Assembly: GCF_965363235.1 (NCBI RefSeq)
Contig: NC_134845.1
Location: forward strand, 23,500,524 to 23,564,523
Direction of reading: 5' to 3'
From: Mytilus galloprovincialis
Taxonomy: Eukaryota; Mollusca; Bivalvia; Mytilida; Mytilidae
Length of the DNA: 64,000 nt
Shown here: positions 2,901 to 62,029 of the stretch, piece by piece
Position numbering within the stretch: the stretch's first letter is position 1
How the letters are laid out: each line of letters begins with the position of its first letter
Notes under the pieces: generated by a model
The model's input: the letters and a program-made list of their open reading frames with translations, nothing else
Database searches by the model: none
What the model was told of the DNA's origin: nothing
Position numbers and translations under genes: made by a program

Positions 2901-3168
2901 AAGTGGAAGTATTTATTTCATTTGACCCGTATTCATGTCATTTGTCTTCATTAGTTTGATTTTGAATTATTTTGTGTTATGGAAAAAAAATTGTCTACAA
3001 ATTGCAAATTTTAATTTCATTTGTATACTACCGATTGTTAGCCATTCAGAAAAAAAATGACAGCTCCATGTTATTCCTTGTGGATACTGGGCTACTCTAG
3101 CATGCAACCATTTGTTTTGTTCAGACAAAAACAAACAGAAGATAACTCTGAAACAAAATAAACTTTTA

Positions 3169-8370: not shown

Positions 8371-8768
8371 TTGTTGAAGATACCAATTTAAATTGCTTAA
8401 TTTTTTGAGGGATGTATAAGTACCAAGCCACGTTCTTCTAGTTATACCTATTCAAAACTTATTATTACATTTTAACGGCTGTTTGTTCGCGATGTTTAAA
8501 TACTCAGAGTCTGTTGCAGCTACTTTACTCTGTCAATTTAAAATATTTATAAATTTAGATCGTTCAGTGCTGTCTATTTGGTAATTTTATTGACGTAATC
8601 ATTCTTGTACCATCATAATTGTCGTTCCCGTTAAAGTTTTAGAATTGTGCTAGTTCATACCATACATTATTATTTGTATTTAAAGCATATATTTGAACTC
8701 TCTGTTTTAATAAGCAATATATAACCGATGTCATGTTTAATAATTTTATTACACCAAAAGCTTCATTT

Positions 8769-9031
8769 TGAAGCCCAGGTGGTCGTGTGGTCTAGCGGGA
8801 TGGCTACAGTGCAGGCGATTTGGTGTCACGATATCTCAGTAGCATGGGTTCGAATCCCGGCGGGGGAAGAACAAAAACTTTGCGAAAGCAAATTAATAGA
8901 TCTAACATTGTTGGGTTGATGTTTAGACGAGTTGTATATACATAATGTACACAGCCATGTATCACCATCACTGCTGGTGATCCGATGGATAAATCTGTTG
9001 TAGAGATGTCACTGGCTCAGACGTACTTATA

Positions 9032-9064
<33 letters not shown>

Positions 9065-24584: not shown

Positions 24585-24990
24585 ATATATATATATACAA
24601 CTCGTCTAAACATCAACCCAACAATGTTAGATCTGTAAATTTGATTTCGCAAATGTTTTGTTCTTCCCTCGCCGGGATTCGAACCCATGCTACTGAGATA
24701 TCGTGACACCAAATCGCCTGCACTGTAGTCGTCCCGCTAGACCACACGACCACCTGGGCTTCATAAAAATGAAGCTGTCGGTGGCCGGGTGTTACCTTCC
24801 CACGTCAGTTTTAATTTAGCGTCGTACTACAGTAAATGATATATATATAAGGCATGGAGATGTTATTACAGTCACAAAAAATAATTATATTTATAAGTAC
24901 GTCTGAGCCAGTGACAACTCTACAACAGATTTATCCATCCGATCACCAGCAGTGATGGTGATACATGATGGCTGTGTACATTATAAATTT
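24585..24990 (-). mobile_element. SINE copies, minus strand, head-to-tail
   Basis: Minus-strand box B (GGATTCGAACC on plus, about 24665-24675) and box A (CCCGCTAGACCA on plus) belong to a SINE whose 5' head (AACATCTCCATGCC..) lies at about 24865. It is preceded, in its own direction, by the 3' tail of another copy (24870-24990: GTGACTG, CAGACGTAC, CCGATGGATAAATC in reverse). The two are joined tail to head. Confidence 0.75.
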
Positions 24991-24996
24991 TAAAAA

Positions 24997-25390
24997 ATAA
25001 CATCTCCAAGCCTTATATATCATGAACTGTATGTAGTACGACGCTAGATTAAAACTGACTTGGAAAGGTAACACCCGGCCACCGAAACCTTCATTTTTAT
25101 GAAGCCCAGGTGGTCGTGTGGTCTAGCGGGACGGCTACAGAGCAGGCGATTTGGTATCACGATATCTCAGTAGCATGGGTTCGAATGCTGGCGAGGGAAG
25201 AACAAAAAATTTGCGAAAGCAAATTTACAGATCTAACATTGTTGGGTTGATGTTTTAATTAGACGAGTTGTATATACATAATGTACACAGCCAGGTATCA
25301 CCATCACTGCTGGTGATCCGATGGATAAATCTGTTGTAGAGTTGTCACTGGCTCAGACGTACTTATAAATATAATTATTTTCTGTGACTG
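24997..25390 (+). mobile_element. SINE copy with extended 5' head, plus strand
   Basis: Head AATAACATCTCCAAGCC..CGACGCTAGATTAAAACTGAC, then tRNA-like part with box A (TGGTCTAGCGGG) and a mutated box B (GGTTCGAATGC), then the family body and tail ending TTTTCTGTGACTG. The tRNA-like part is about 95 bp internal, so the element has a non-tRNA leader. Confidence 0.75.
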
Positions 25391-25439
25391 TATCTTACAT
25401 TAATTTGTAGGATCCTTTACTATATATAATTTAGCTGAT

Positions 25440-25720
25440 CTGTAAAAATAACATCTCCATGCCTTATATATCATGTACTGTAGTACGACGCTAGATTAAA
25501 ACTGACGTGGAAAGGTAACACCCGGCCACCGACAGCTTCATTTTTATGAAGCCCAGGTGGTCGTGTGGTCTAGCGGGACGACTACAGTGCACGCGATTTG
25601 GTGTCACGATATCTCAGTAGCATGGGTTCGAATCCCGGCGAGGGAAGAACAAAAAAAATGCGAAAGCAAATTTACAGATCTAACATTGTTGGGTTGATGT
25701 TTAGACGAGTTGTTTATATA
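25440..25720 (+). mobile_element. SINE copy, plus strand, 3'-truncated
   Basis: Starts with the same AACATCTCCATGCC head about 50 bp after the preceding copy, keeps intact box A and box B (GGTTCGAATCC, about 25625-25635), and stops after GATGTTTAGACGAGTTG. It lacks the CACTGCTGGTGATCC tail. Confidence 0.75.
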
Positions 25721-25849
25721 TAGAGACATATAATATGTATTTAATATATCTATGTTCCTGTCCCACTTTAATATGAATAAAATCAGTTTTTGTAGTTCTT
25801 TTCTTTTTGTTGAAATAAGAAAGTAGTGAATATCAATATTTCTGTGACG

Positions 25850-33100: not shown

Positions 33101-36100
33101 CAAGAATTTGAATTTTAACTCAAATACTGATAAATAAATCTCGGACAACGCACATTCGTAAATTGATGTGTTATAGTGAACAATATATGACTAGTTGCCA
33201 CTATAAATTATTCAATTTACAAATAACACAACCAAAAGAAATAATTATTCATCTTTTGCAAGTCAGTTATATGTAGTATAAGTCACTTTCACAGTCAAAA
33301 TGTCTGAAAAAAGCGTTTATTATAAGAAATATGGAGCTTAAATATTTTGGTCAGGCAAAGTGATTGAATTTGAATTTAAAATTTGTTCTTATTGAGAATT
33401 ATTTTGCAGGGCAATGATGGGCGTAGAACAATAAGAGGTGTTCAAACTAAGCGTCCTTCCATGTTCACACCAGAGAATTTCACAGTATGTACAAAACGAT
33501 TCAATATTAACTTGTTGAATTATGTTAAATAAATCAGAGACAGCGATACAAAAGGCAATTATAATTTTAAAGAATGGGTCCAAAGAAATTGGTAGCGAAG
33601 AAGGACTAACATAATAATTCAACATGTTTTGATATTTGCATCAAACTTTGATAGCTGCTTTTTCTCCCTTTATATTGTGGGAGAGAATTTAATTTCAAAA
33701 TTATATACAAAACGTTTTTTGCTACTGTTAGGGAACACCTGCACAACCGTAACTATTGTATCTCTTCCAATTTGAGCAAAGCTTTTTCAAGAAAATCTTG
33801 CAATTGTGTCCTTCAGTACTATAGAATTTTATAGAACAAAGAACGATAAAGTGTCATTGGACCACACATGACCCTGAACATGATATCTGAACTAGAAGTT
33901 TGTATTGCATGTACTTAATTTACATACATTTAATGTCGATCTATCCAAATATCTTAATTTCAGCGACCAACACAAGAAAGAGTTTTTGTAGCAGCATTAG
34001 ACATCGGAACAACATTTTCAGGATATGCGTTTTCTTTTCGTCATGATTATCTGGTTGACAAGCTTAAGATATCTACGAACATGTGGGCACATAATAGTGG
34101 TCTATCAGCAAAGGCTCCGTCAGCTATTTTGATCGGCCCAGGAAAACAGGTCGAAGCCTTTGGATATGAAGCCCAGCTGATGTATGCCAATCTGGTTGAA
34201 AATTCGCGGGAAAGTGATTACTTCTACTTTAATAAGTTTAAACTTATCCTATACAATAAACAGGTACTATTGGGTCTTTTTCTTATCAATAAATAAAAAG
34301 ACACTTATGTACAGATCTAACAATCTAAAGATAAAGACTAAAAAAAGGGGGAGTTGAGATCCAAAACCAAACTAATCAGCCCCACCACACAATGTCATTG
34401 GCATGTGCCCGTCTCAGTCAGGACCCTCGTCAGTAGTTGTCGTTTGTCATATCTCTGGGTTTTTTTTTGGTTTGTTTGGTTTGTTTTTTTTTTGGGGGGG
34501 GGGGGGTGATTAAGTGACATGAGTGTTGATGGAAGATCTTTGATTAGTTGTGGTTTATTTAGTGACACATTTAATATACATGGTAGGAAAAGGTAATCTG
34601 AAAAGTATTAAAATGATCTTGTTGACAAGTTGAACACTTACTACATTATGAATTTGCCTGTCTAAAGTTAACAACCTGTTATACAGTGGTTGTCGTTTGT
34701 TGCTGTACAAACGATTGGTTTTCCGTTTCCGTTTATTGTTTTAAAAAGAAATCTCGTTTGATTTGTTCAATATATTGTCATGTCGTGGCTTTCATAGTTT
34801 GCTATGATGCATGTGGTTTGTTGATTTTTGAAGGCCAAACAGTGAAATATAATTGCTGACATCTTCGTCATTAAGTATCTTGCTTAGAGTTGTCTCAATG
34901 GCAATCGTATACAACGTCTTTTTATCTTTATACTGATTATGATATGTATTTTGCTACCAGTATTCTATATGTATAAGAGTAGGCGATACTGCACAGCTAA
35001 TGGGGGAAAATACAAAAGTCTGAAATGGTTGTTCTTTGTCTGTTTTGCTTATTTATTTATCTATTTTAGTTTGGTATTGTATATATGTCATATATAATCT
35101 TTGCTATCAATGAACTCAACCAAGATTTAACTACAAAAACATTTTTTTTTCATAAAAAAATAATTCAACAAGGGCTCAGTTTTCAATGAGATCTACATAT
35201 AGAGTACATGCTTTATTCGCTATCTCCATACATAATTGACATTTCTTAAATTTCCCCCTGTTCAGGATCTTAACTACAAAACCAGAATACAAGACATACA
35301 CGGTAAAGATATGTATGCCATTGACGTTTTTGGTTTAGTAATCAGTTTCCTAAAGAACCACCTTCTTGATCGATTGAAAGGCCAAGACAGTTCGTCCATT
35401 GTTGGAGAAGATATGATTCATTGGGTTTTAACCGTGCCTGCAATATGGAGTGACAAAGCAAAGCAGTTTATGAGAAAAGCAGCCGCAGAAGTAAGATCAT
35501 CTTTGAGTTGCACACATCAACTTGTTTATATTTATTATTGAGACTTAATATTACTTCACAAGCTGTACCTTTCGACAGCAAACTCGTCAATGAAGGGAAA
35601 CATTACAATGGGTCGACAACGTAGCGATAAAATCCTGCATCCGGAGGTGGTCCCCAGCTGGCCACAATAAAATTGTGTACTAGTTCAGTGAAAATGGACG
35701 TCACTTTAAACTCCAAAACATATAAATGCACTAAAATTAAAAAAAAAAAACATACAAGACTATCATAGGCCAGAGGCTACTGACTTGGAATAGGCGCAAA
35801 AATGCAAAATACATTACAATTTCTCTTCTTATATTGAATCATCTGCCATTTATCTTGAAGTGTTTTTTTTATATTTCTCGCTATTGAAAGTTGGTGATTT
35901 TGTTTAGTTTATACAATTGTAGGCTAGTATTCCAAGTAAAAGTCTGACTCTTGCCCTGGAGCCAGAAGCAGCGTCTTTGTTCTGTAAAACATTCCAGCAT
36001 GCCGTACACGGAAATTCACAAGCCGCCATACGAAAAGGAAGCAAATACCTGTTGATTGATCTTGGAGGTATAATTTGTCATTTCTAAATGAATATCTTTG

Positions 36101-37502
36101 GGAAAACAAACATACTCGAATTAAACAGTATAGTAGTAGGATATATGCTAGATCGTGTTTATATCAAAAGTGACCCTTTTCTGTTTATATAAAGAGAAAG
36201 TTCCAAATGCAGCATTTAACACTGTTGGATTTGGTAACGACGAGAAACAATTGAAACAAAGTCTTTCTCTATTTCATAGTTATACATTTATGAGATATTA
36301 TATATATAATTGTAATATCCTGATTGAAAATCAAATGTCTTTCATTTTTTAATTTTTCTATCTAATCCAAAATAAAGTAAGTATAACAACAACTAAATAT
36401 GATGTTATATTGTTGTATACAATTTAAACACAACCAATTTATTTCAGGTGGAACAGTTGATATCACGGCACATAAAGTACACATTGACGGCACACTACAA
36501 GAACTTTATCAAGCCACCGGAGGTAGATGGGGAGGCACGACTGTTGATAGCGAGTTCCAGCTGTTTTTGTTTAGACTCTTTGGTCAACAAGTGATGGAAA
36601 AGGCATATAGAAAGTATCCTAATGAGATGTTGGAACTATCTTTGGATTTTGAAGTGAAAAAGCGAGTTTTTGAACCAAAACAGACATTAGCCGTTGCAAT
36701 TAAAATACCCGTTTGTCTACATGAATTATTTTATGAAATAAATTCAATGACAATTGCGGAAAGTGTTCAAAATTCAACTATGAAACATACAGTGGAACTG
36801 AAAAGAGACAAAATGATGATAGTACCAAAACAATTTTACAACTTCTTTGATAGTTCATTAACATGTATTGTAAATCATGTCCATGGTCTGCTCCATAAAC
36901 AGGATCTTTCAGACATTAATACCATCTTGTTAGTTGGTGGGTTTGCTGAATCCCATGTTGTTAAAGAAGCAATGCGGTTGAACTTTCCAAAGATGCGTAT
37001 TGTGAATCCGGATGATTGTTCGCTGAGTGTCCTTAAAGGTGCAGTTTTATTTGGTCATGATCCACAAGCTATATCATCAAGAATATGTAGGTATACATAT
37101 GGTATCGCGATTACGATACCGTACGTTCCTGGTGTTCATCCGGTAAGAAAAAGACAAATAATTAAAGGAAATGCTATATGTGATGATATATTTGACATTC
37201 ATTTGAGAATTGGTGAAAAGGCCGAAATAGGAAAACCACGAAAAGAAGCTGTGTATCAAGCTGTACAAGGTGAAAGATTGGCGATTCTGGAGGTTTTTGC
37301 ATCAACTGATCCCAAACCTCACTTTGTAACTGAAGACACATGTTTTGAATTAGGATCATTAGTTATTAATCTGACAGATTTTAACAGAAATGAAAACAAA
37401 GTAAACGTAACTCTTCATTACAATGGAACTGAATTAGATGTTGTGGCGAGAGAAGTGAGTACTGGCAAATACATGACGGCAACGCTAGATTTTCTAGGCT
37501 AA
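30114..37502 (+). CDS. HSPA12: HSPA12A/HSPA12B-like Hsp70-family protein
   Basis: Seven coding exons: 30114-30212, 32737-32877, 33410-33484, 33964-34263, 35266-35490, 35923-36067 and 36448-37502, all with GT-AG ends and consistent phase, giving 679 aa (human HSPA12A has 675). HSPA12 proteins are distant Hsp70s with an actin-like ATPase fold but no classic substrate-binding domain; the family is expanded in bivalves. Visible nucleotide-binding motifs: phosphate 1 ALDIGTTFSGYAF (about 116-128), the VLTVPAIWSDKAKQFM segment, LALEPEAAS, phosphate 2 LIDLGGGTVDIT split by intron 6, and the adenosine motif LLVGGFAES (489-497). The N-terminus starts MGNCC, followed by a PPPLPPPLPP run and a PPPY motif, predicting a myristoylated, palmitoylated membrane form. 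The start has G at -3 and +4 and an in-frame stop at 30066-30068 with no ATG between. The vertebrate insertion before phosphate 2 is absent. Whether A- or B-like is not decidable here. Confidence 0.95.
30514..30864 (+). pseudogene. C-terminal ORF remnant of a retroelement
   Basis: A 117-codon open frame without an ATG at its start reads KGFRYHKLVKTFTKFYHRYK, later GISHSIFYGNILYKAH, then LHRLIKKGYSYDTVVRSL, and ends with TAA. Its G-(I)SHP-like, FYGNI and KKGY..VV.SLK pattern resembles the C-terminal end of a reverse-transcriptase polyprotein (inference from pattern). It sits in HSPA12 intron 1, directly upstream of a complete R2 repeat, which is therefore probably its 3' UTR. Confidence 0.5.
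30865..31510 (+). repeat. Dispersed repeat family R2, fullest copy
   Basis: Contains AATAGGAAGGATTGGGCCTG, CTCGGACTTCTCTTGAACTG, GGGGGAGGGTTGAGATCTCA, GTCAGGAGCCTCTGGCC, TTTGGAGTTTAGTATGG, GGGGCCAGCTGAAGGACGCC and a TGACACATTCCCCATTTCC end. Other copies: 10790-11110, 18943-19085 and (inverted) 35580-35830. Confidence 0.75.
34310..34940 (+). repeat. R1-type dispersed repeat in HSPA12 intron 4
   Basis: GGGGGAGTTGAGATCC, GTCTCAGTCAGGACCC and GTGGTTGTCGTTTG open it, and a TTTTTGAAGGCCAAACAGTG..GTTGTCTCAATGGCAATCG end closes it. A T-rich plus poly-G run (34486-34507) interrupts the copy. Confidence 0.6.
35580..35830 (-). repeat. R2 repeat, inverted copy in HSPA12 intron 5
   Basis: Reverse-strand R2 landmarks: ATCCGGAGGTGGTCCCCAGC, TAGTTCAGTGAAAATGGACG, AACTCCAAAACAT, GGCCAGAGGCTACTGACTTG. 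Confidence 0.7.
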
Positions 37503-44400: not shown

Positions 44401-46623
44401 TAACAATTATGAAATTCAGAGCTGTCAGTACAATGTAACATCGGACGTTACACTTAATAGTTGATATACAAAATATCAATAACACATTTTATGATAGAGA
44501 AAGTATTGTCAATATTTTTATTTTGTGACAGAAGTGCATATAGAAAATTTGCAGCTTCATTTCTTCTTTTAGAACACAGAAAGAACAAAAGTATCGCAAT
44601 TCTACAAAAGCTACAGAATAGTTTGTTTTTGAGTGGGAAAATAACTTCAAAACGACATGTTATTTCGATGGTGATAATGATCGTCGATTACCGCGAAAAC
44701 ATGTCGCCAGTGGCTTTAGTCACAAACACATCGTACTGGTCAACCAATTCAAGATTATGACTGTAAATCATAGGTAGTGTCGATTTCAGTCGTTCTCCTT
44801 CGTAACAGAGTTGAAGTAGTGTTTGTGTAAGGAGCAAACTCACTGTTGCTGAAGTCCGTATAATGATAACACGCAGGGATATACCAGGTCAACTGCAATA
44901 TAAAAAAACGCCATACGATAGCGAGTATGGTCTACGTTACTGCTGAGAATATAGGAAATTGACAATTGGAAAGTTTAAATTGTAACATTTGTCCTTTATT
45001 CTTGCTTTTAGGAATTTCGGATCATCAATGCTCTTCAACTTTGTACTTGTTTGGCTTTATAAATATTTTAATATGAGCATCACTGACGAGTCTTATGTAG
45101 ACGAAACGCACGTCTGGCGTACTAAATTATAATCCTGGTACCTTTGATAACTAATTAGAGTCATCCAACTGTATGACTGTCAAGTACGACAAAAAAACGT
45201 ATTTATTAAGGACTTTTCAATAAAAAAAAATTGGAGGAAATCGACATAGACTTTGTATTATCTAAACATAAGTGATAATTGTATACTATTGCTACCTGGT
45301 AGTTGTAATTGCTTATGTGAATAAAAAACATTAATACTATATATGTCCTATGCACACACTTAATTATTTTCTTTTCTAAAGAGTAATGCATTAGATGTAT
45401 AATACTCACTGACCATTTATGAATGAGAAAGTATACTCACCTAAAGCTTTACCGAGAACAATTCCTCCTTCCTCTCGAAAACTATTTTTACTTAAAGATA
45501 AAGTTCGTATAGACTGATTTTTCTGCAAATAATTATGATAACTGATATTTGTAGCCATGACTTTGAAAATAATAACCGTTACTGTTATCATTAATACTGT
45601 TATTATCATAATTCCAATTATTATCCATTTGTAAGAAATATTTAGCTTTTTCCATTTGAAAATACATGTTATACAACTTGAAATTAAATGCATAAAATTG
45701 CTAACATAAACAAACATTTTTTGCAACCATAAAAAAACATAGCATAGCTATGAGATATCGCTAAATTACTGTTTATGACATGTTTTGTAAAACAAACAGA
45801 TAACTTAAGTTTTCTCTACTTACTTTTACTAAATTTGATAAAGGTACAGCATCAGCTTCAGTAAATCCATTAGCTTGAACATAACATTAAAACAATATTT
45901 GTATTGTGAAGTAGCGTGAGTACAGAAATTATGTATACTTAATCTGTTGGATGTTTACTAATTTACACTGTATACTATGGAAGGATATGTTTCATTCGTA
46001 AGTTGTAATTGGCTTTGAACTAGCTTTATGTTTAAATGAAAACTATAAGTGATTTGTGTCTATTATTTGTATGTGAGGTGATATATTTTTTGTTAGTTTT
46101 TATTATACTTTGTGCTGATCTAAGGCTTTGTAACTGAATTGTTTTGGCTCTCATATTGTGCTGTTACACCTGTCCTGAGTGGGGAGGGTTGAGTGCTTGC
46201 ACAAAGGTGTAAACACGCCACAGACATGATTATGTGTCTGTCCCAAGCCTGTAGCCTGTAATTCAGTGGTTCTTATTGGTTCATGGCTGTCCTATTTTGG
46301 TTTTTCAATAAATGTATTGTTAATTATTATACCGTTATTTTTGTTCGATATTTTCAAATTTTCATGATTGGCCTGCATTGCAGAGTATTTGTTTCTGAAT
46401 TTTCCCTTCGGAAAAGATCACAAGGTGACCCATAGTTGTCTTATGAGCAATCATAACTCTTTTCTTTATTCAATTATACAGAAAATATCAATTATTCCTT
46501 TAGGGATACGTTATATTTATTTTTATTTTTATTTCAAAATAAACACACCATGTTTATTTCATTATTAACATGACCGACAATGTTTACCTATCCTAAGAGT
46601 TTGAATAGTTCGTTTAGCCCAGT
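38453..46623 (-). CDS. LRRC74A: LRRC74-type leucine-rich repeat and EF-hand protein (5' end missing)
   Basis: Nine minus-strand coding exons were rebuilt: 46623-46588, 45873-45824, 45522-45441, 44325-44240, 42507-42313, 42067-41975, 41363-41100, 39472-39387 and 38618-38453 (stop included), about 351 aa, all phases consistent. Leucine-rich repeats of the ribonuclease-inhibitor type run through the first six exons (SIRTLSLSKNSFREEGG, TITYLDLSWNHLRQRGA, TIESINLAWNGFGMEG, TITELDLTSNRI, TLKILRIGFNP). The alpha/beta part ends in IEDLDLSDILVDDSFMK, and two EF-hands follow: LDRDHSDTLTRDEF and LDINQDGQVDFEE, both with all calcium-coordinating positions filled. A basic helical tail ends the protein. 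The order matches LRRC74A/B proteins, whose function is poorly known. The 36-nt first exon is the least certain; further 5' exons should lie beyond 46.6 kb and were not found, so N-terminal completeness is unknown. Choice between LRRC74A and B is uncertain. Confidence 0.85.
39153..39351. mobile_element. MITE rich in ATTCGAATT, in LRRC74-like last intron
   Basis: Ends match inversely around TTCACACG (ATGCTGAGTTCACACG left, CGTGTGAACGAGGCAT right). The interior is full of ATTCGAATT / GATTCGCATT palindromic words. About 199 bp, no coding frame. Confidence 0.6.
40587..40747. mobile_element. Foldback with 45-bp arms in LRRC74-like intron
   Basis: GAAATAATTCATGGCAGCCG at 40587 is inverted, nearly perfectly over 45 bp, to 40747, around a 71-bp loop. 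The frame at 40694-41035 is an intronic accident including the right arm. Confidence 0.6.
41405..41685. mobile_element. TTAA-ended MITE in LRRC74-like intron
   Basis: TTAAGGTGGTACC at the left end and GGTACCACCTTAA at the right end form perfect 13-bp inverted tips including TTAA, the target preferred by piggyBac-type elements. 281 bp, non-coding. I recognise the family as common in mussels. Confidence 0.75.
43145..43335 (-). repeat. R1-type dispersed repeat, inverted, in LRRC74-like intron
   Basis: GAGCGCTGAACCCTCCCC, TCCTAGGAAAGTTGTGTAAC and AGCACAACATA match, reversed, the GTTACACCTGTCCTGAGTGG..GAGTGC copy at 46150-46210. A short fragment of another copy (AAGATGTGGTATGATTGC) is at 42633-42660. 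Confidence 0.5.
45003..45155 (+). repeat. Dispersed repeat carrying a hammerhead motif (copy 2)
   Basis: Colinear with 755-905. It lies in the intron between LRRC74-like exons 45522-45441 and 44325-44240, on the strand opposite to the gene. Confidence 0.75.
45077..45120 (+). ncRNA. Hammerhead ribozyme motif, copy 2
   Basis: CTGACGA (45083-45089), stem II GTCT/AGAC (45090-45093 with 45099-45102), GAAA (45103-45106), minimal stem III CGCACG, TC with cleavage expected after 45114. Stem I GCATCA/TGGCGT pairs with two wobbles and one mismatch. The core allows C at the variable position of CUGANGA. Confidence 0.65.
46140..46330 (+). repeat. R1-type dispersed repeat
   Basis: GTGCTGTTACACCTGTCC, GGGGAGGGTTGAGTGC, GTGTCTGTCCCAAGCCTG and ATTCAGTGGTTCTTATTGG follow the family order. 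It ends about 260 bp from the first recognised LRRC74-like exon. Confidence 0.6.
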
Positions 46624-49612: not shown

Positions 49613-49621
49613 TTACCAATA
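49613..49621. repeat. Left 9-bp target-site duplication of the giant element
   Basis: TTACCAATA directly abuts the left tip (ATGGGCGTC) and is repeated exactly at 62021-62029 after the right tip. Confidence 0.85.
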
Positions 49622-49633
49622 ATGGGCGTCAAG

Positions 49634-49875
49634 TTGGTTACCTATTCCCTATTCCCTATTCGTTACCTATTCCCTATTCCCTATTCGTTGCCTATTCGTT
49701 ACCTATTCCCTATTCCCTATTCGTTACCTATTCGTTACCTATTCCATATTCCCTATTCGTTACCTATTCCCTATTCCCTATTCGTTGCCTATTCGTTACC
49801 TATTCCCTATTCGTTACCTATTCGTTACCTATTCCCTATTCCCTATTCGTTCCCTATATATTCGTTACTTATTTG
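49634..49875 (+). repeat. Left tip short-repeat block
   Basis: About 240 bp of two interleaved words, CTATTCC and CTATTCGTTAC, in 7-11-bp steps. It is mirrored by about 61800-62007 with slightly fewer units (46 bp shorter). Translated in any frame it gives repetitive PYSLPIRYLF-type peptides that are not genes. Confidence 0.85.
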
Positions 49876-49919
49876 ATTTTTAATATCCTTCCCCCTTTTT
49901 AATTATGGCATGGAATAGT

Positions 49920-50500
49920 TTAATATGGCTGCCGTTACCATGGAAACGGCACAATTGTGAAAAAAATGAGTTTTGGTTTTTGGTGAACTGTTTGGATATG
50001 CTTCAACTCAGAATCATCATATTTTAAAACAATGTAGGTGCCCACTATATACAGGTCTTGGATGATTTTGGCGATCATTGGAACTACTATGTTGCCATGG
50101 AAACTACACCAAAATTTTCAAAATTCTAAAAATGCTCAAAACTTCATGAAACTTCACAGTAATGATGAGCAACATTGGAGTTGGAATTTCCAAAATAGGT
50201 CTTGTTACCATGGAAACAATGCAAAAAGGTCAAAAATTTCAAAAATAAGAATTTTCCGCAAACTGGATGAAACTTTACAGGAATGGTAACTGGCATAGGC
50301 AGAGTTGGATTTTGAAGTTAGAATTTTCAAAATGGCCGCCGTAACCATGGAAACAGCAAAAATATCAAAAATTCAAAATGTTCAAACTTAATGAAACTTT
50401 GCAAAAATGTTACTAGACATCTGTAGATGCTCTCTTTGACTTTGGAATTGTCAAAATGGCTGCCGCTCACCTGGTAATAGGGGGAAGGGGTGCCTTCCGT
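49920..50500 (+). repeat. Four degenerate units centred on CCATGG X-box-like palindromes (left arm)
   Basis: GTTACCATGGAAAC (49934-49947), GTTGCCATGGAAAC (50091-50104), GTTACCATGGAAAC (50204-50217) and GTAACCATGGAAAC (50341-50354) each head a unit of about 110-155 bp with TCAAAA(A)TTC and ATGAAACTTTAC/GC phrases. The motif fits the RFX X-box pattern. The 83-codon frame 50038-50289 is a translation of these units. Confidence 0.7.
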
Positions 50501-50756
50501 TATTGCTAGCAATTACAAATCTAGTTGTTAATAGTCTTACATATGGTAATAGTTCTGAATTGGTTGAGGTAAAATGATCTTTTTATGACTTATTTATATG
50601 TGTTTGTGCTCAACCGATCCTTTTACTTCATGTTCGATACGCATTTGTTCCTTACTTGTTTTTTTATACGTTCTACCTTTTAACTGCTTTATGTCCGTAT
50701 GTTTGAAGATGGATCTTGGTTCGACGGGATGAAATCACCGTGTTAGCGCTTGCTAA

Positions 50757-51090
50757 AAAACGAAGATGTGGTATGATTGCCAATGAGACAACACTCCACA
50801 TTAGACCAAAATGACACAGAAATTATCAACTATAGTTCACTGTACGGCCTTCAACAATGAGCATAGCCCAAACCGTGTAGTCACCTATAAAAGGCCCAGA
50901 CATGACAACCTCATACAATTCAAACAACAAAACTGACGGCCGTATTTCATATACAAAAAAATAAACGGAAATATGTAACACAAAAACAAACGATAACTAC
51001 TTAATTTCAGGCTCTTGTCTAGGGACAGGCACATACTTACATAATGTGGTAGAGTTAAACATGTAAGCAGGGTGTACATCGTTTCGGAGC
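50757..51090 (-). repeat. Captured R1 dispersed repeat, left arm
   Basis: A good R1 copy in reverse orientation (AAGATGTGGTATGATTGCC, GGCCTTCAACAATGAGC, CTATAAAAGGCCCAGACATG, GGCTCTTGTCTAGGGACAGG). Its mirror is at 60598-60931, and the 64-codon frame in it is identical in both arms. Confidence 0.8.
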
Positions 51091-51099
51091 ATGCTATTA

Positions 51100-54000
51100 C
51101 CTTGTTTAATTCGTTCCATCACTCGCTTATAATTCGCTTATAATACGTGTATCTTACGTTGCACCTTTTAAAACATGATTTTCAATTGTTTTGTTGTCTC
51201 TGGTGGAAGATTTGGGCTCTTAGAGGTGATATAACTCTATAAGTGCATTTGTATCCGTTCCAGCGGTCGGATAATACCCTGTTAAATATTCGTTACTAAT
51301 TCGCTTTTAAAAAGTTTGTTGTACGTTGCACCTTTTAGAAAAGGATTTCCAATTGTGTTCATATCTCTGGTGGTAATAATGTGTTCTTATAGATGAAATA
51401 CCCCTATAAGCGCATATGTACTCGTTCCAGCGATCGGTTAATACCCTGTTACCTATTCCTTACCTATTCGTTACCTATTCGTTACCTATTCACTTATAAT
51501 ACGTTTGTTGTACGTTGCACCTTTTAGAAAAGGATTTTCAATTAAATTCATATCTCTGGTGGTAACAATGTGTTCTTAGAGATGAAATGACCCCATTAGA
51601 GCGCATGTACCCGTTCCAGCGCTCGGTAAATAACCTGTTACCTATTCGTAACTTATTCGCTTTTAATGCGCGGGGTATACGGTGCACCTGTAAATAAATC
51701 GTGTTTTAATTGTGTTCAGGTCTCTGGTGGTAAGAATGTGTTCTTAGAGATGAAATGACCCCATTAGAGCGCATATACCCGTTTCAGCGCTCGGTAAATA
51801 ACCTGTTACCTATTCGTTACTTATTCGCTTTTAATGCGCGGGGTATACGGTGCACCTTTAAATAAATCGTTTTTTAATTGTGTTCAGGTCTCTGGTGGTA
51901 AGAATGTGTTCTTAGAGATGAAATTACCCTATTAGCGCGCATGTACCCGTTCCAGCGCTCGGTTAATACCCTGTTACCTATTCGTTACCTATTCGTTACC
52001 TATTCGCTTATAATACATTTTTTTATACGTTGCACCTGTTAGAAAAGGATTTTCAATTATGTCCAGGTCTCAGACGGTAACAATGTGTTCTTAGAGATGA
52101 AATGACCCCATTAGAGCGCATGTACCCGTTCCAGCGCTCGGTAAAAAACCTGTTACCTATTCGTTACCTATTCGCTTTTAATGCGCGGGGTATACAGTGC
52201 ACCTTGAAATAAATCGTGTTTTAATTGTGTTCAGGTCTCTGGTGGTAAGAATGTGTTCTTAGAGATGAAATTACCCTATTAGCGCGCATGTACCCGTTCC
52301 AGCGCTCGGTTAATACCCTGTTACCTATTCGTTACCTATTCGTTACCTATTCGCTTATAATACATTTTTTTATACGTTTCACCTGTTAGAAAAGTATTGT
52401 CAATTATGTCCATGTCTCAGGTGGTAACAATGTGTTCTTAGAGATGAAATTACCCTATTAGCGCTCATGTACCCGTTCCAGTGCTCGGTAAATAATCTTG
52501 TTACCAATTCGCTTTTAATGCGCGGGGTATACGCTGCATTTTGAAATAAATCGTGTTTTAATTGTGTTCATGTCTGGTGGTAACAATGTGTTCTTAGAGA
52601 TGAAATGACCCCATTTGAGCGCATGTACCCGTTCCAGCGCTCGGTAAATAACCTGTTACCTATTCGTTACTTATTCGCTTTTAATGCGCGGGGTATACGG
52701 TGCACCTTGAAATAAATCGTTTTTTAATTGTGTTCAGGTCTCTGGTGGTAAGAATGTGTTCTTAGAGATGAAATGACCCTATTAGCGCGCATGTACCCGT
52801 TCCAGCGCTCGGTTAATACCCTGTTACCTATTCGTTACCTATTCGTTACCTATTCGCTTATAATACATTTTTTTATACGTTTCACCTGTTAGAAAAGGAT
52901 TTTCAATTATGTCCATGTCTCAGGTGGTAACAATGTGTTCTTAGAGATGAAATTACCCTAATAGCGCTCATGTACCCGTTCCAGTGCTCGGTAAATAATC
53001 TTGTTACCTATTCGTTACCTAATCGCTTTTAATGCGCGGGGTATACGCTGCAACTTGAAATAAATCGTGTTTTAATTGTGTTCAGGTCTCTGGTGGTAAG
53101 AATGTGTTCTTAGAGATGAAATTACCCTTTTAGCGCGCATGTACCCGTTCCAGCGCTCGGTTAATACCCTGTTACCTATTCGTTACCTATTCGTTACCTA
53201 TTCGCTTATAATACATTTTTTTATACGTTTCACCTGTTAGAAAAGGATTGTCAATTATGTCCATGTCTCAGGTGGTAACAATGTGTTCTTAGAGATGAAA
53301 TTACCCTATTAGCGCTCATGTACCCGTTCCAGTGCTCGGTAAATAATCTTGTTACCTATTCGTTACCTATTCGCTTTTAATGCGCGGGGTATACGCTGCA
53401 ACTTGAAATAAATCGTGTTTTAATTGTGTTCATGTCTGGTGGTAACAATGTGTTCTTAGAGATGAAATGACCCCATTTGAGCGCATGTACCCGTTCCAGC
53501 GCTCGGTAAATAACCTGTTACCTATTCGTTACTTATTCGCTTTTAATGCGCGGGGTATACGGTGCACCTTGAAATAAATCGTTTTTTAATTGTGTTCAGG
53601 TCTCTGGTGGTAAGAATGTGTTCTTAGAGATGAAATGACCCTATTAGCGCGCATGTACCCGTTCCAGCGCTCGGTTAATACCCTGTTACTTATTCGTTAC
53701 CTATTCGTTACCTATTCGCTTATAATACATTTTTTTATACGTTTCACCTGTTAGAAAAGGATTTTCAATTATGTCCATGTCTCAGGTGGTAACAATGTGT
53801 TCTTAGAGATGAAATTACCCTATTAGCGCTCATGTACCCGTTCCAGTGCTCGGTAGATAATCTTGTTACCTATTCGTTACCTATTCGCTTTTAATGCGCG
53901 GGGTATGCGCTGCAACTTCAAATAAATCGTGTTTTAATTGTGTTCATGTCTGGTGGTAACAATGTGTTCTTAGAGATGAAATGACCCCATTAGAGCGCAT

Positions 54001-55925
54001 GTACCCGTTTCAGCGCTCGGTAAATAACCTGTTACCTATTCGTTACTTATTCGCTTTTAATGCGCGGGGTATACGGTGCACCTTTAAATAAATCGTTTTT
54101 TAATTGTGTTCAGGTCTCTGGTGGTAAGAATGTGTTCTTAGAGATGAAATGACCCTATTAGCGCGCATGTACCCGTTCCAGCGCTCGGTTAATACCCTGT
54201 TACCTATTCGTTACCTATTCGTTACCTATTCGCTTATAATACATTTTTTTATACGTTGCACCTGTTAGAAAAGGATTTTCAATTATGTCCAGGTCTCAGA
54301 CGGTAACAATGTGTTCTTAGAGATAAAATGACCCCATTCGAGCGCATGTACCCGTTCCAGCGCTCGGTAAATAACCTGTTACCTATTCGTTACCTATTCG
54401 CTTTTAATGCGCGGGGTATACGGTGCACCTTGAAATAAATCGTTTTTTAATTGTGTTCAGGTCTCTGGTGGTAAGAATGTGTTCTTAGAGATGAAATTAC
54501 CCTATTAGCGCGCATGTACCCGTTCCAGCGCTCGGTTATTACCCTGTTACCTATTCGTTACCTATTCGTTACCTATTCGCTTATAATACATTTTTTTATA
54601 CGTTTCACCTGTTAGAAAAGGATTTTCAATTATGTCCAGGTCTCAGACGGTAACAGTGTGTTCTTAGAGATGAAATGACCCCATTAGAGCGCATGTACCC
54701 GTTCCAGCGCTCGGTAAATAACCTGTTACCTATCGTTACCCATTCGCTTTTAATGCGCGGGGTATACGGTGCACCTTGAAATAAATCGTTTTTTAATTGT
54801 GTTCAGGTCTCTGGTGGTAAGAATGTGTTCTTAGAGATGAAATTACCCTATTAGCGCGCATGTACCCGTTCCAGCGCTCGGTTAATACCCTGTTACATAT
54901 TCGTTACCTATTCACTTATAATACGTTTGTTGTACGTTGCACCTTTTAGAAAAGGATTTTCAATTGTGTTCATGTCTCTGGTGGTAACAATGTGTTCTTA
55001 GAGATGAAATGACCCTATTAGCGCATATGTACCCGTTCCAGCGCTCGGTTAATACCCTGTTACCTATTCGTTACCTATGCGTTACTTATTCGCTTTATAT
55101 ACGTTTGTTGTACTTTGCACTTTTTAGAAAAAGAATTTTACTTGTTTTCATGTCTCTGGTGATAACAATGTGTAATTAGAGATGAAACGACCCTATTAGC
55201 GTGCATGAACCCGTTCCAGCGCTCGGTTAATACCCTGTTACCTATTCGTTACCTATTCGTTACCTATTCACTTATAATACATTTGTTGTACGTTGCCCCT
55301 TTTAGAAAAGGATTTTCACTTGTGTTCATGTCTCTGGTGGTAACAATGTGTAATTAGAGATGAAATGACCCTATTAGCGTGCATGTACCCGTTCCAGCGC
55401 TCGGTTAATACCCTGTTACCTATTCGTTACCTATTCGTTACTTATTCGCTTTATATACGTTTGTTGTACGTTGCACTTTTTAGAAAAAGATTTTTACTTG
55501 TATTCATGTCTCTGGTGGTAACAATGTGTAATTAGAGATGAAATGATCCTGTTAGCGCTTATGTACCCGTTCCAGCGCTCGGTTATTACCCTGTTACCTA
55601 TTCGTTACCTATTCACTTATAATACGTTTGTTGTACGTTGCACCTTTTAGAAAAAGATTTTTACTTGTGTTCATGTCTCTAGTGGTAACAATGTGTAATT
55701 AGAGATGAAATGACCCTATTAGCGTGCATGTACCCGTTCCAGCGCTCGGATAATACCCTGTTACTTATTCGTTCCTTATTCGCTTTTAATGCGCAGGGTA
55801 AGTATACGTTGCACCTTGAAATAAATCGTTTTTTAATTGTGTTCATGTCTTTGGTGGTAACAATGTAATCTTAGAGACGAAATGACCCTATTAGAGTGCA
55901 TGTACCCGTTCCAGCGCTCGGTTAA
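51100..55925 (+). repeat. 168/179-bp tandem array, left arm (roughly 27 units)
   Basis: The CCGTTCCAGCGCTCGG landmark recurs at 51611, 51779, 51947, 52126, 52294, 52473, 52629, 52797, 52976, 53145, 53324 and 53491, i.e. spacings of 168 or 179 and once 156. The 11-bp steps are added or lost copies of CGTTACCTATT. Three unit types differ after that sub-repeat (CGCTTATAATAC.., CGCTTTTAATGCGCGGGG..GGTGCACC, and ..CGCTGCAACTT) and recur in order, forming a higher-order repeat. No coding capacity. Confidence 0.9.
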
Positions 55926-56147
55926 TACTGTAAACCAACTTAATTTCGCGAGCGATTTATTTTCGCGATTTTCGCGAGTAGAAAAATAACGCGAAAATAA
56001 ATCGTCGCGAATATGTAAAACTTGGATCTTTCCTTATTAAACTTCATCAAGTAAATCAGAAAATCGCGAAATTAAATAGCCGCGAATTGGTCAAGAAAGG
56101 GTAAAACGCGAAATAAAGTATTCGCGAAAATAAGTTGGTTTACAGTA
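55926..56147. mobile_element. 222-bp MITE at the centre of the palindrome
   Basis: TACTGTAAACCAACTT and AAGTTGGTTTACAGTA are perfect 16-bp inverted ends, and the interior is rich in TTTTCGCG/CGCGAAAA. Removing it with one TA restores CGGTTAATACCCTGT, a normal array sequence, so it inserted into an array unit at TA. Confidence 0.85.
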
Positions 56148-59100
56148 CCCTGTCATTTCGTCTCTAAGATTACATTGTTACCACCAAAGACATGAACACA
56201 ATTAAAAAACGATTTATTTCAAGGTGCAACGTATACTTACCCTGCGCATTAAAAGCGAATAAGGAACGAATAAGTAACAGGGTATTATCCGAGCGCTGGA
56301 ACGGGTACATGCACGCTAATAGGGTCATTTCATCTCTAATTACACATTGTTACCACCAGAGACATGAACACAAGTAAAAATCTTTTTCTAAAAGGTGCAA
56401 CGTACAACAAACGTATTATAAGTGAATAGGTAACGAATAGGTAACAGGGTAATAACCGAGCGCTGGAACGGGTACATAAGCGCTAACAGGGTCATTTCAT
56501 CTCTAATTACTCATTGTTACCACCAGAGACATGAATACAAGTAAAAATCTTTTTCTAAAAAGTGCAACGTACAACAAACGTATATAAAGCGAATAAGTAA
56601 CGAATAGGTAACGAATAGGTAACAGGGTATTAACCGAGCGCTGGAACGGGTACATGCACGCTAATAGGGTCATTTCATCTCTAATTACACATTGTTACCA
56701 CCAGAGACATGAACACAAGTGAAAATCCTTTTCTAAAAGGGGCAACGTACAACAAATGTATTATAAGTGAATAGGTTACGAATAGGTAACGAATAGGTAA
56801 CAGGGTATTAACCGAGCGCTGGAACGGGTTCATGCACGCTAATAGGGTCGTTTCATCTCTAATTACACATTGTTATCACCAGAGACATGAAAACAAGTAA
56901 AATTCTTTTTCTAAAAAGTGCAAAGTACAACAAACGTATATAAAGCGAATAAGTAACGAATAGGTAACGAACAGGTAACAGGGTATTAACCGAGCGCTGG
57001 AACGGGTACATATGCGCTAATAGGGTCATTTCATCTCTAAGAACACATTGTTACCACCAGAGACATGAACACAATTGAAAATCCTTTTCTAAAAGGTGCA
57101 ACGTACAACAAACGTATTATAAGTGAATAGGTAACGAATAGGTAACGAATAGGTAACGAATAGGTAACAGGGTATTAACCGAGCGCTGGAACGGGTACAT
57201 GCGCGCTAATAGGGTCATTTCATCTCTAAGAACACATTCTTACCACCAGAGACCTGAACACAATTAAAAAACGATTTATTTCAAGGTGCACCGTATACCC
57301 CGCGCATTAAAAGCGAATGGGTAACGAATAGGTAACAGGTTATTTACCGAGCGCTGGAACGGGTACATGCGCTCTAATGGGGTCATTTCATCTCTAAGAA
57401 CACATTGTTACCGTCTGAGACCTGGACATAATTGAAAAACCTTTTCTAACAGGTGAAACGTATAAAAAAATGTATTATAAGCGAATAGGTAACGAATAGG
57501 TAACGAATAGGTAACAGGGTATTAACCAAGCGCTGGAACGGGTACATGCGCGCTAATAGGGTCATTTCATCTCTAAGAACACATTCTTACCACCAGAGAC
57601 CTGAACACAATTAAAAAACGATTTATTTCAAGGTGCACCGTATACCCCGCGCATTAAAAGCGAATAGGTAACGAATAGGTAACAGGTTATTTACCGAGCG
57701 CTGGAACGGGTACATGCGCTCGAATGGGGTCATTTTATCTCTAAGAACACATTGTTACCGTCTGAGACCTGGACATAATTGAAAATCCTTTTCTAACAGG
57801 TGCAACGTATAAAAAAATGTATTATAAGCGAATAGGTAACGAATAGGTAACATGGTATTAACCGAGCGCTGGAACGGGTACATGCGCGCTAATAGGGTAA
57901 TTTCATCTCTAAGAACACATTCTTACCACCAGAGACCTGAACACAATTAAAAAACGATTTATTTAAAGGTGCACCGTATACCCCGCGCATTAAAAGCGAA
58001 TAAGTAACGAATAGGTAACAGGTTATTTACCGAGCGCTGAAACGGGTACATGCGCTCTAATGGGGTCATTTCATCTCTAAGAACACATTGTTACCACCAG
58101 ACATGAACACAATTAAAACACGATTTATTTCAAGTTGCAGCGTATACCCCGCGCATTAAAAGCGAATAGGTAACGAATAGGTAACAAGATTATTTACCGA
58201 GCACTGGAACGGGTACATGAGCGCTAATAGGGTAATTTCATCTCTAAGAACACATTGTTACCACCTGAGACATGGACATAATTGAAAATCCTTTTCTTAC
58301 AGGTGAAACGTATAAAAAAATGTATTATAAGCGAATAGGTAACGAATAGGTAACGAATAGGTAACAGGGTATCAACCGAGCGCTGGAACGGGTACATGCG
58401 CGCTAATAGGGTCATTTCATCTCTAAGAACACATTCTTACCACCAGAGACCTGAACACAATTAAAAAACGATTTATTTCAAGGTGCACCGTATACCCCGC
58501 GCATTAAAAGCGAATAAGTAACGAATAGGTAACAGGTAATTTACCGAGCGCTGGAACGGGTACATGCGCTCAAATGGGGTCATTTCATCTCTAAGAACAC
58601 ATTGTTACCACCAGACATGAACACAATTAAAACACGATTTATTTCAAGTTGCAGCGTATACCCCGCGCATTAAAAGCGAATAGGTAACGAATAGGTAACA
58701 AGATTATTTACCGAGCACTGGAACGGGTACATGAGCGCTAATAGGGTAATTTCATCTCTAAGAACACATTGTTACCACCTGAGACATGGACATAATTGAC
58801 AATCCTTTTCTAACAGGTGAAACGTATAAAAAATGTATTATAAGCGAATAGGTAACGAATAGGTAACGAATAGGTAACAGGGTATTAACCGAGCGCTGGA
58901 ACGGGTACATGCGCGCTAATAGGGTCATTTCATCTCTAAGAACACATTCTTACCACCAGAGACCTGAACACAATTAAAAAACGATTTATTTCAAGGTGCA
59001 CCGTATACCCCGCGCATTAAAAGCGAATAAGTAACGAATAGGTAACAGGTTATTTACCGAGCGCTGGAACGGGTACATGCGCTCAAATGGGGTCATTTCA

Positions 59101-60560
59101 TCTCTAAGAACACATTGTTACCACCAGACATGAACACAATTAAAACACGATTTATTTCAAGTTGCAGCGTATACCCCGCGCATTAAAAGCGAATAGGTAA
59201 CGAATAGGTAACAAGATTATTTACCGAGCACTGGAACGGGTACATGAGCGCTAATAGGGTAATTTCATCTCTAAGAACACATTGTTACCACCTGAGACAT
59301 GGACATAATTGACAATCCTTTTCTAACAGGTGAAACGTATAAAAAAATGTATTATAAGCGAATAGGTAACGAATAGGTAACAGGGTATTAACCGAGCGCT
59401 GGAACGGGTACATGCGCGCTAAAAGGGTAATTTCATCTCTAAGAACACATTCTTACCACCAGAGACCTGAACACAATTAAAACACGATTTATTTCAAGGT
59501 GCACCGTATACCCCGCGCATTAAAAGCGAATAGGTAACGAATAGGTAACAGGTTATTTACCGAGCGCTGGAACGGGTACATGCGCTCTAATGGGGTCATT
59601 TCATCTCTAAGAACACATTGTTACCGTCTGAGACCTGGACATAATTGAAAATCCTTTTCTAACAGGTGCAACGTATAAAAAAATGTATTATAAGCGAATA
59701 GGTAACGAATAGGTAACGAATAGGTAACAGGGTATTAACCGAGCGCTGGAACGGGTACATGCGCGCTAATAGGGTAATTTCATCTCTAAGAACACATTCT
59801 TACCACCAGAGACCTGAACACAATTAAAAAACGATTTATTTAAAGGTGCACCGTATACCCCGCGCATTAAAAGCGAATAAGTAACGAATAGGTAACAGGT
59901 TATTTACCGAGCGCTGAAACGGGTACATGCGCTCTAATGGGGTCATTTCATCTCTAAGAACACATTGTTACCACCAGACATGAACACAATTAAAACACGA
60001 TTTATTTAAAGGTGCACCGTATACCCCGCGCATTAAAAGCGAATAAGTAACGAATAGGTAACAGGTTATTTACCGAGCGCTGGAACGGGTACATGCGCTC
60101 TAATGGGGTCATTTCATCTCTAAGAACACATTGTTACCACCAGAGATATGAATTTAATTGAAAATCCTTTTCTTAAAGGTGCAACGTACAACAAACGTAC
60201 TATAAGTGAATAGGTAACGAATAGGTAACGAATAGGTAACAGGGTATTAACCGATCGCTGGAACGAGTACATATGCGCTTATAGGGGTATTTCATCTATA
60301 AGAACACATTATTACCACCAGAGATATGAACACAGTTGGAAATCCTTTTCTAAAAGGTGCAACGTACAACAAACTTTTTAAAAGCGAATTAGTAACGAAT
60401 ATTTAACAGGGTATTATCCGACCGCTGGAACGGATACAAATGCACTTATAGAGTTATATCACCTCTAAGAGCCCAAATCTTCCACCAGAGACAACAAAAC
60501 AATTGAAAATCATGTTTTAAAAGGTGCAACGTAAGATACACGTATTATAAGCGAATTATA
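56148..60560 (-). repeat. 168/179-bp tandem array, right arm
   Basis: Inverted copy of the left array with the same unit types in mirrored order, about 350 bp (two units) shorter. Frames within it (for example 56192-56377, 58224-58415) are repeat translations. Confidence 0.9.
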
Positions 60561-60597
60561 AGCGAGTGATGGAACGAATTAAACAAGGTAATAGCAT

Positions 60598-60931
60598 GCT
60601 CCGAAACGATGTACACCCTGCTTACATGTTTAACTCTACCACATTATGTAAGTATGTGCCTGTCCCTAGACAAGAGCCTGAAATTAAGTAGTTATCGTTT
60701 GTTTTTGTGTTACATATTTCCGTTTATTTTTTTGTATATGAAATACGGCCGTCAGTTTTGTTGTTTGAATTGTATGAGGTTGTCATGTCTGGGCCTTTTA
60801 TAGGTGACTACACGGTTTGGGCTATGCTCATTGTTGAAGGCCGTACAGTGAACTATAGTTGATAATTTCTGTGTCATTTTGGTCTAATGTGGAGTGTTGT
60901 CTCATTGGCAATCATACCACATCTTCGTTTT
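60598..60931 (+). repeat. Captured R1 dispersed repeat, right arm
   Basis: Mirror of 50757-51090. Landmarks ACATGTTTAACTCTACCAC, CCTGTCCCTAGACAAGAGCC, GGCCGTCAGTTTTGTTG, ATTGTTGAAGGCCG and GTCTCATTGGCAATCATACC. Confidence 0.8.
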
Positions 60932-61187
60932 TTAGCAAGCGCTAACACGGTGATTTCATCCCGTCGAACCAAGATCCATCTTCAAACATACGGACATAAA
61001 GCAGTTAAAAGATAGAACGTATAAAAAAACAAGTAAGGAACAAATGCGTATCGAACATGAAGTAAAAGGATCGGTTGAGCACAAACACATATAAATAAGT
61101 CATAAAAAGATCATTTTACCTCAACCAATTCAGAACTATTACCATATGTAAGACTATTAACAACTAGATTTGTAATTGCTAGCAATA

Positions 61188-61770
61188 ACGGAAGGCACCC
61201 CTTCCCCCTATTACCAGGTGAGCGGCAGCCATTTTGACAATTCCAAAGTCAAAGAGAGCATCTACAGATGTCTAGTAACATTTTTGCAAAGTTTCATTAA
61301 GTTTGAACATTTTGAATTTTTGATATTTTTGCTGTTTCCATGGTTACGGCGGCCATTTTGAAAATTCTAACTTCAAAATCCAACTCTGCCTATGCCAGTT
61401 ACCATTCCTGTAAAGTTTCATCCAGTTTGCGGAAAATTCTTATTTTTGAAATTTTTGACCTTTTTGCATTGTTTCCATGGTAACAAGACCTATTTTGGAA
61501 ATTCCAACTCCAATGTTGCTCATCATTACTGTGAAGTTTCATGAAGTTTTGAGCATTTTTAGAATTTTGAAAATGTTGGTGTAGTTTCCATGGCAACATA
61601 GTAGTTCCAATGATCGCCAAAATCATCCAACACCTGTATATAGTGGGCACCTACATTGTTTTAAAATATGATGATTCTGAGTTGAAGCATATCCAAACAG
61701 TTCACCAAAAACCAAAAACTCATTTTTTTCACAATTGGGCCGTTTCCATGGTAACGGCAGCCATATTAAA
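61188..61770 (-). repeat. X-box-like units, right arm
   Basis: Mirror of 49920-50500. GTTTCCATGGTTAC-type motifs at 61334-61347, 61471-61484, 61584-61597 and 61741-61754 (all read on plus). Two substitutions against the left arm within the 83-codon stretch 61399-61650. Confidence 0.7.
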
Positions 61771-61799
61771 CTATTCCATGCCATAATTAAAAAGGGGGA

Positions 61800-62007
61800 A
61801 GGATATTAAAAATCAAATAAGTAACGAATAGGTAACGAATAGGGAATAGGGAATAGGTAACGAATATGTAACGAATAGGGAATAGGGAATAGGTAACGAA
61901 TAGGCAACGAATAGGGAATAGGGAATAGGTAACGAATAGGTAACGAATAGGGAATAGGGAATAGGTAACGAATAGGCAACGAATAGGGAATAGGGAATAG
62001 GTAACCA
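61800..62007 (-). repeat. Right tip short-repeat block
   Basis: GTAACGAATAGG / GGAATAG words, the mirror of the left tip block. The three overlapping minus-strand frames here (61787-62061) are all translations of the repeat. Confidence 0.85.
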
Positions 62008-62020
62008 ACTTGACGCCCAT

Positions 62021-62029
62021 TTACCAATA
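62021..62029. repeat. Right 9-bp target-site duplication of the giant element
   Basis: TTACCAATA immediately after the right tip CGCCCAT, identical to 49613-49621. Sequence beyond it (TAAGTCTG..) is unrelated to that left of the left copy, fixing the boundary. Confidence 0.85.

Follow-up and report, generated by a model that had tools for sequence, protein, structure and literature searches.

A family of giant foldback transposons with satellite-like arms in the mussel Mytilus galloprovincialis

FB elements of Drosophila consist of inverted arms built from short tandem units and are flanked by 9-bp duplications of their target. Here we describe an element that shares this arm plan and duplication size in the bivalve Mytilus galloprovincialis, and differs from FB in its repeat units, its unit sizes, its satellite-sized monomers and its scale. 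The element lies within a stretch of 64,000 nucleotides (C8:23500524-23564523 of a 1.385-Gb assembly), hereafter called the window, whose own numbering is used wherever no contig is named. We conclude that it is very probably a non-autonomous foldback DNA transposon, because its tips are bounded by a 9-bp duplication and occur at many unrelated sites, because an empty form of a target is present and because palindromes with the same centre are dispersed through the genome. The features of foldback elements are all observed, namely long inverted arms that form most of the element, tandem repeats within those arms, and dispersed copies with target duplications. The window element is a member of a young mussel foldback family with more than 200 end sequences in the genome, and this is a new family of the FB/Tetris/Tm1 kind, although much larger.

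In structure, the closest known plan is that of Tetris from Drosophila virilis. According to the accessible part of its description (PMC4079207), in Tetris, too, the inverted arms are long and contain tandem units of satellite size (~220 bp), the duplications measure 8-10 bp, and there is no coding capacity and no autonomous partner that could be found. Its arms reach at most 1,735 bp and three structurally complete copies are reported there. In the mussel, by contrast, each arm of the window copy measures about 6 kb, the largest listed copy reaches up to about 12 kb on its longer side, and the first 100 places listed include 46 paired copies. The copy number and the record of remade centres also set the mussel family apart. 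Tm1, a Mutator/Foldback element of root-knot nematodes, shares composite repeat-bearing inverted ends, mostly 9-bp duplications, the lack of a clear target motif and many non-autonomous copies, as far as the portion consulted describes it (PMC3169594). In contrast to the mussel family, it is small (1,080 bp in one example), has motifs of ~14 bp and includes a copy with a Phantom-type transposase of the Mutator-like element (MULE) superfamily, of which no counterpart was found here. Galileo, of the P superfamily, resembles the mussel element in its foldback shape, tandem arm units and transposase-less copies, and those units can serve as transposase binding sites; the excerpts seen of its reports give 7-bp duplications and arms of up to ~1.26 kb, compared with 9 bp and much longer arms here (PMC3573991, PMC3688188).

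From each end inward, the element carries a 16-base tip, a tip array of 11-bp and 8-bp units spanning roughly 200-230 bp, a non-satellite domain of ~1.3 kb and an array of satellite-like monomers. A putative miniature inverted-repeat transposable element (MITE) lies beside the turning point. The features are as follows.

49622-62020, unstranded: foldback element, 12,399 bp
49613-49621, unstranded: left target site duplication TTACCAATA, its 9-bp size upheld by other copies
62021-62029, unstranded: right target site duplication TTACCAATA
49622-49637, + strand: left terminal tip ATGGGCGTCAAGTTGG, 16 bases, with 227 exact copies in the genome
62005-62020, - strand: right terminal tip, 16 bases, inverted, identical to the left tip
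49638-49870, + strand: left tip array of GTTACCTATTC / CCCTATTC units, inner border approximate
61806-62004, - strand: right tip array, inner border approximate
49871-51190, + strand: left non-satellite domain, borders approximate, including a stretch like the window's dispersed repeats
60492-61805, - strand: right non-satellite domain, borders approximate
51191-55927, + strand: left satellite-like array, 28 monomers detected, inverted pairing ending at 55886
56148-60491, - strand: right satellite-like array, 26 monomers detected, inverted pairing beginning at 56152
55928-56145, unstranded: MITE-like insertion, 218 bp, with inverted ends CTGTAAACCAACTTA, flanked on either side by TA, by sequence inspection
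56148-56153, unstranded: palindrome turning point, where CCCTGT meets CATTTCG, with no second occurrence in the genome at up to 2 mismatches

An earlier sequence-only reading of the window had claimed a large inverted repeat with inverted tips and a 9-bp duplication, and the 9-mers at 49613-49621 and 62021-62029 agree with that claim. The span it gave, 49613-62029, takes in the duplication; the element proper runs from 49622 to 62020. Judged against the local flanks, one 9-bp match at a fixed spot has a probability of ~1.5e-5. The 9-mer TTACCAATA occurs six times in the window, compared with 1.88 expected, and just two of these copies adjoin tips. An A precedes the tip at both ends, so that the window copy alone can be read either as a 9-bp duplication with tips beginning ATGGGC or as a 7-bp duplication with tips beginning AATGGGC. 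Other copies, with duplications such as CAAAATCTT, TTATAAAGC and TACCACGGT, fix the size at 9 bp and the tip start at ATGGGC, and they exclude the 7-bp reading because the duplicated bases of some copies are not complementary at their ends. Thus the 9-bp size claimed earlier is right, although it is settled by the other copies. That the likeness of TTACCAATA to the internal unit GTTACCTATTC is a targeting signal was rejected, since such a likeness would arise by chance in roughly 7% of cases (a rough estimate) and other targets show no clear motif.

The two arms of the window copy are 99.16% identical (5786/5835 aligned positions, with the left arm reaching 9 bp into the central insertion), and differ by 49 substitutions and 14 gaps, the largest being a 349-bp block of two monomers and a 49-bp end at the centre. 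The palindrome is near-perfect rather than perfect. Nor is the centre a plain turn: it consists of ~45 bp of left-arm remainder split by the 218-bp MITE-like insertion (55928-56145). This insertion sits almost exactly at the turn. Close to its ends it carries AAGTTGGTT, a sequence shared, perhaps by coincidence, with the foldback tip.

Most monomers comprise a core of ~145 bp plus one to four copies of the 11-bp unit, which mostly accounts for their variation in length: 45 of the 52 measured are 167/168 or 178/179 bp long, with extremes of 156 and 189 bp. The left arm contains 55 exact GTTACCTATTC units, always forward, the right arm 53, always reverse, and the rest of the window one. Monomer order is preserved between the arms at both ends of the arrays (L01-L06 with R01-R06, and L21-L27 with R19-R25), and 26 of 27 left monomers match their best right-arm counterpart at least as well as their best counterpart in the same arm. 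The non-satellite domain contains one stretch that is 67-87% related to dispersed repeats elsewhere in the window. Searches of the window with Rfam at the gathering score, and of nine window frames with Pfam above cut-off, returned no matches.

The exact tip occurs 227 times in the assembly (112 forward and 115 reverse), whereas the reversed pattern used as a control is absent. Further tips had been proposed as a sign of mobility, and confinement of the tip to this locus, which would have spoken against it, did not occur. An exact tip followed by A, C or G has no match in the genome. Positions are known for the first 100 of the 227 places, of which 99 lie on contigs C1-C4 and one lies beyond C4. 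Paired by eye, the 99 tips form 46 inward-facing pairs (forward then reverse) and leave seven unpaired; pair lengths range from 6,264 to 21,153 bp with a median of 12,331 bp. The largest listed copy (C1:77585895-77607047, 21.2 kb) has a longer side of up to ~12 kb, and ~4.9 kb of its left arm is unpaired.

The window copy and 36 of the 46 listed pairs were read at both ends. Among these 37 pairs, the 9-bp duplication is exact in 27, matches within one mismatch in 32 and within two in 34, and the remaining three have more. When partners were swapped, the corresponding numbers were 0, 0 and 1 of 1332. No pair shows an exact duplication of 7, 8, 10 or 11 bp. The targets are AT-rich without a clear motif, and the duplications are not only exact at 27 of the 37 pairs but also different from one another, as had been predicted for a mobile element. 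Inverted monomer arrays are present in 14 of the 15 copies that were read through.

Three observations weigh against the foldback-transposon explanation. First, in five of the 37 pairs no 9-bp duplication exists even when one mismatch is allowed. Second, copy L027 (C1:91605062-91611809) has monomers on only one side (20), with no inverted ones opposite; it still has both tips, and its target duplication shows one mismatch. Third, copy L029 (C2:24179880-24186637) has ~1.2 kb of unrelated DNA at its centre, at about element position 2830-4336, possibly a captured sequence.

Sequencing reads that fold back on themselves are known to produce long, nearly identical inverted arms, and a false inverted repeat of this origin had been named as a possible refutation. 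Such reads could yield the arms seen here, but 49 substitutions and 14 gaps separate the two arms, exact 9-bp duplications lie at both ends at 27 of the 37 sites read, and one centre junction recurs at 49 places. We regard an assembly or sequencing artefact as having a negligible probability.

Also consistent with transposition is the empty form of one target. The copy C2:6564471-6576068 interrupts a dispersed repeat, and its joined flanks match the following window feature at 84% (58/69 columns).

5772-5839, + strand: uninterrupted copy of the dispersed repeat, a related empty site of C2:6564471-6576068 with a single 9-bp target

A 32-base pattern across the joined flanks has 4,556 matches in the genome (2283+2273) at up to 3 mismatches, compared with none for its control. 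In one listed place this dispersed repeat stands in tandem at 55-bp steps. A 30-base stretch of the window, 45124-45153, is 97% identical to sequence in the right flank of the copy C1:80491133-80506826, and so this copy may also sit in a dispersed repeat. An empty site of the window copy itself, which had been expected in other haplotypes, has no match in its own assembly at up to 3 mismatches.

The centres of the palindromes reveal what it is that moves. Thirteen copies with readable centres have eight distinct turning points, one of which is common to five of them. This shared junction occurs at 49 places in the genome at up to 2 mismatches. On C1-C4, 21 of its 25 occurrences lie inside a listed pair and four lie within 9 kb of an unpaired tip; the other 24 are outside the region of the listed tips, one tip excepted. 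The same junction in or beside many different elements indicates that a finished palindrome was copied to dozens of sites. Thus whole palindromes move as a unit, and the earlier claim to this effect holds at the level of the family.

Alternatively, a single arm could move and each palindrome could form in place, when a one-armed element inserts and then folds back. The variety of centre junctions (eight types in 13 copies) fits such a history, as does the junction of the window copy, which is unique in the genome. In-place formation would not, however, leave each end with a true tip and a target duplication, and the 49 copies of one junction, 25 of them in or beside different elements on C1-C4, require the movement of a finished palindrome. 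We therefore consider in-place formation very unlikely and favour movement of the whole foldback element. The turning point of the window copy is found once, in the window itself (at up to 2 mismatches), and because of this uniqueness its present centre may be younger than its insertion.

A script that classified the junctions gave overlaps of 1-3 bp in six copies, filler of 1-2 bp in four copies, and values of 18 and 32 bp in two others. One of the filler copies, L033, carries the shared junction and differs through an alignment effect. For the window copy the script value is swamped by the MITE-like insertion, and the junction is 2 bp by eye. Junctions of this sort would fit end joining once a palindrome has broken at its turn, and a template switch is an alternative origin for new centre junctions.

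To assess likeness between arms, the non-satellite domain was compared in 64 of 74 arms, ten being dropped for short or interrupted coverage. Mean arm identity is 98.8% within a copy and 98.1% between copies for the 29 elements with both arms usable. In the arm tree, 15 of 21 two-leaf clusters join both arms of one element, whereas 10,000 shuffles gave a mean of 0.3 and a maximum of 4. Of 14 elements of the shared-centre type, 12 were usable for a separate analysis. In all 12, identity within the copy exceeds the mean between copies, and in six it exceeds every value between copies. In eight of the 12, the two arms have variants in common that none of the other sampled arms has; these number 22, against 64 variants private to one arm. 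Since elements with a shared centre have one ancestral palindrome, a variant private to both arms must have been transferred between them, have originated twice or have disappeared from the other elements.

Several results count against such exchange between arms. Four of the 12 shared-centre elements have no private variant common to both arms, and the partner arm is the single closest arm in just 10 of the 29 elements and in six of the 12 with a shared centre. Moreover, a comparison of 567 monomers from 15 copies shows that in 14 of them the monomers are on average closer to other copies than to their own opposite array (L027, counted among the 14, has no opposite array). Only the monomers of the window copy are closer to their own opposite array (0.983 versus 0.976). 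Comparison of left with left and right with right arms between copies was uninformative, as the palindrome has no fixed side, and arms oriented by the shared centre give no same-side signal. In the same-centre arm tree, C4:18259418-18276364 and C1:70042359-70059156 pair crosswise (A-B and B-A), as if the centre of one copy had been flipped by recombination between its arms. Partial conversion between arms is supported by these data but not proven.

A mechanism for which we judge the chances to be about even is that the arms of a copy swap sequence, by gene conversion or arm-to-arm recombination, while breaks at the centre are rejoined at new points. The outcome would be that centres are remade while the arms stay matched. 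We tentatively extend this to a self-renewing giant palindrome, which survives and spreads through such rejoining and arm-matching recombination, although we consider it somewhat more likely that this full model is wrong. If it is correct, every insertion documents how a palindrome broke and was repaired, and the family keeps moving satellite-like arrays to new places in the genome. Palindromes of such length are expected to be unstable, and yet here near-complete palindromes of 6-21 kb are the moving form of a young family that has inserted many times. With dozens of copies marked by their insertion sites, and with centres both shared and private, the family would allow palindrome breakage, repair and homogenization to be measured in an animal genome. 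The family also connects the spread of satellite-like arrays in bivalves with a mobile element, and its insertions are potential markers for mussels.

The absence of a transposase claimed for the window copy extends to the 15 copies read through, in which no frame from stop to stop reaches 150 amino acids, except for three that run through the tip array (judged by frame length only). The enzyme would come from elsewhere. The 9-bp duplication, exact in 27 of 37 pairs, agrees with the 8-11 bp (usually 9 bp) of MULEs, and 9 bp is the size that MULE transposases commonly make, according to the portion consulted of the Tm1 report (PMC3169594). This points to a MULE enzyme as the probable mover, although it does not prove it. 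Such a transposase would probably bind the tips, and perhaps the GTTACCTATTC units, excise the element and insert it with a 9-bp stagger. MULE-domain matches are abundant in this genome, numbering 140 among the 150 scored of 324 candidates. Sixteen of these share a score of 51.4 bits and look like a recently active or recently spread MULE family; eight of the 16 have open frames of 459 amino acids.

Two points tell against a MULE. The autonomous, tip-sharing relative with a MULE transposase that had been proposed was not found, and the 47 MULE matches on C1-C4, the contigs that this comparison covers, are all at least 124 kb from the listed tips. In addition, the tip does not begin with the G that is common in Mutator ends.

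A different enzyme, such as a Merlin, P/Galileo-like or undescribed transposase, is a distinctly less probable mover, at odds well below those of a MULE. Merlin also produces duplications of 8-9 bp, a size compatible with ours, and no MULE gene bearing the tip was found (exact tip; listed tips of C1-C4). Foldback shapes also arise on P-type transposases, as Galileo illustrates in the accessible part of its description (PMC3573991). Within the sections consulted of a mollusc survey (PMC10294476), the part based on reading frames counts 63 Merlin elements over its species, and bivalves are said to have at least one element of every superfamily; its automatic libraries, by contrast, contain MULEs in all genomes and Merlin almost solely in cephalopods. 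The 7-bp duplication of Galileo and P elements is not seen here. The constant 9 bp, with no exact case of 7, 8, 10 or 11 bp, is the size usual for MULE transposases in the Tm1 report as consulted (PMC3169594), and together with the abundance of MULE genes it argues for a MULE over these enzymes.

Satellite-like monomers within a bivalve mobile element also recall the Helentron or pearl-type rolling-circle elements of oysters. Rolling-circle elements of this kind have rolling-circle ends without terminal inverted tips and make no target duplication, whereas the mussel copies have both inverted tips and 9-bp duplications, which leaves this explanation with almost no probability. An oyster satellite table, in the part available, labels two satellites, one of 182 bp, as DNA/MuDR (PMC8268682), and this is a precedent for linking satellites to the MULE superfamily in bivalves.

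A full-text literature search for 'foldback element' with mollusc gave no match, in a body of text with subscription journals mostly beyond reach, so that absence from print is not established. In the oyster papers checked from a search for mussel or bivalve with foldback, the term appears, in the parts seen, only where Tetris is cited. The 16-base tip occurs in 15 viral contigs, which is about the level expected by chance (our own estimate), and none of these occurrences runs on into an 11-bp array; the doubled 11-bp unit and the monomer motif are absent from the viral contigs. Among genome contigs searched for outside relatives, the monomer motif has no match and the doubled 11-bp unit matches one contig of a cyanobacterial metagenome-assembled genome (L016). 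Positions 80-162 of that contig, which has long open frames, hold an 83-bp array of a near-identical 11-bp unit. Among the matches listed, the array alone matches the window, and we set this contig aside as a relative, the likeness being probably convergence.

Elsewhere in the window, frames at 33958-37499 resemble exons of a gene for an HSPA12-like protein (heat shock 70 kDa protein 12A). The best named match of the exon at 36387-37499 is an HSPA12-like protein of Mytilus californianus (94% over 59% of the query), and this exon has no match above cut-off in a PDB sequence search; the other frames presumably belong to the same gene, given their position. Positions 24588-25722 hold a repeat cluster whose copies measure up to 258 bp, run in both orientations and are mostly 94-98% alike. 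A further copy of this repeat, 75-98% alike in parts, lies 16 kb away at 8701-9032 and belongs, with the cluster, to a separate repeat family.

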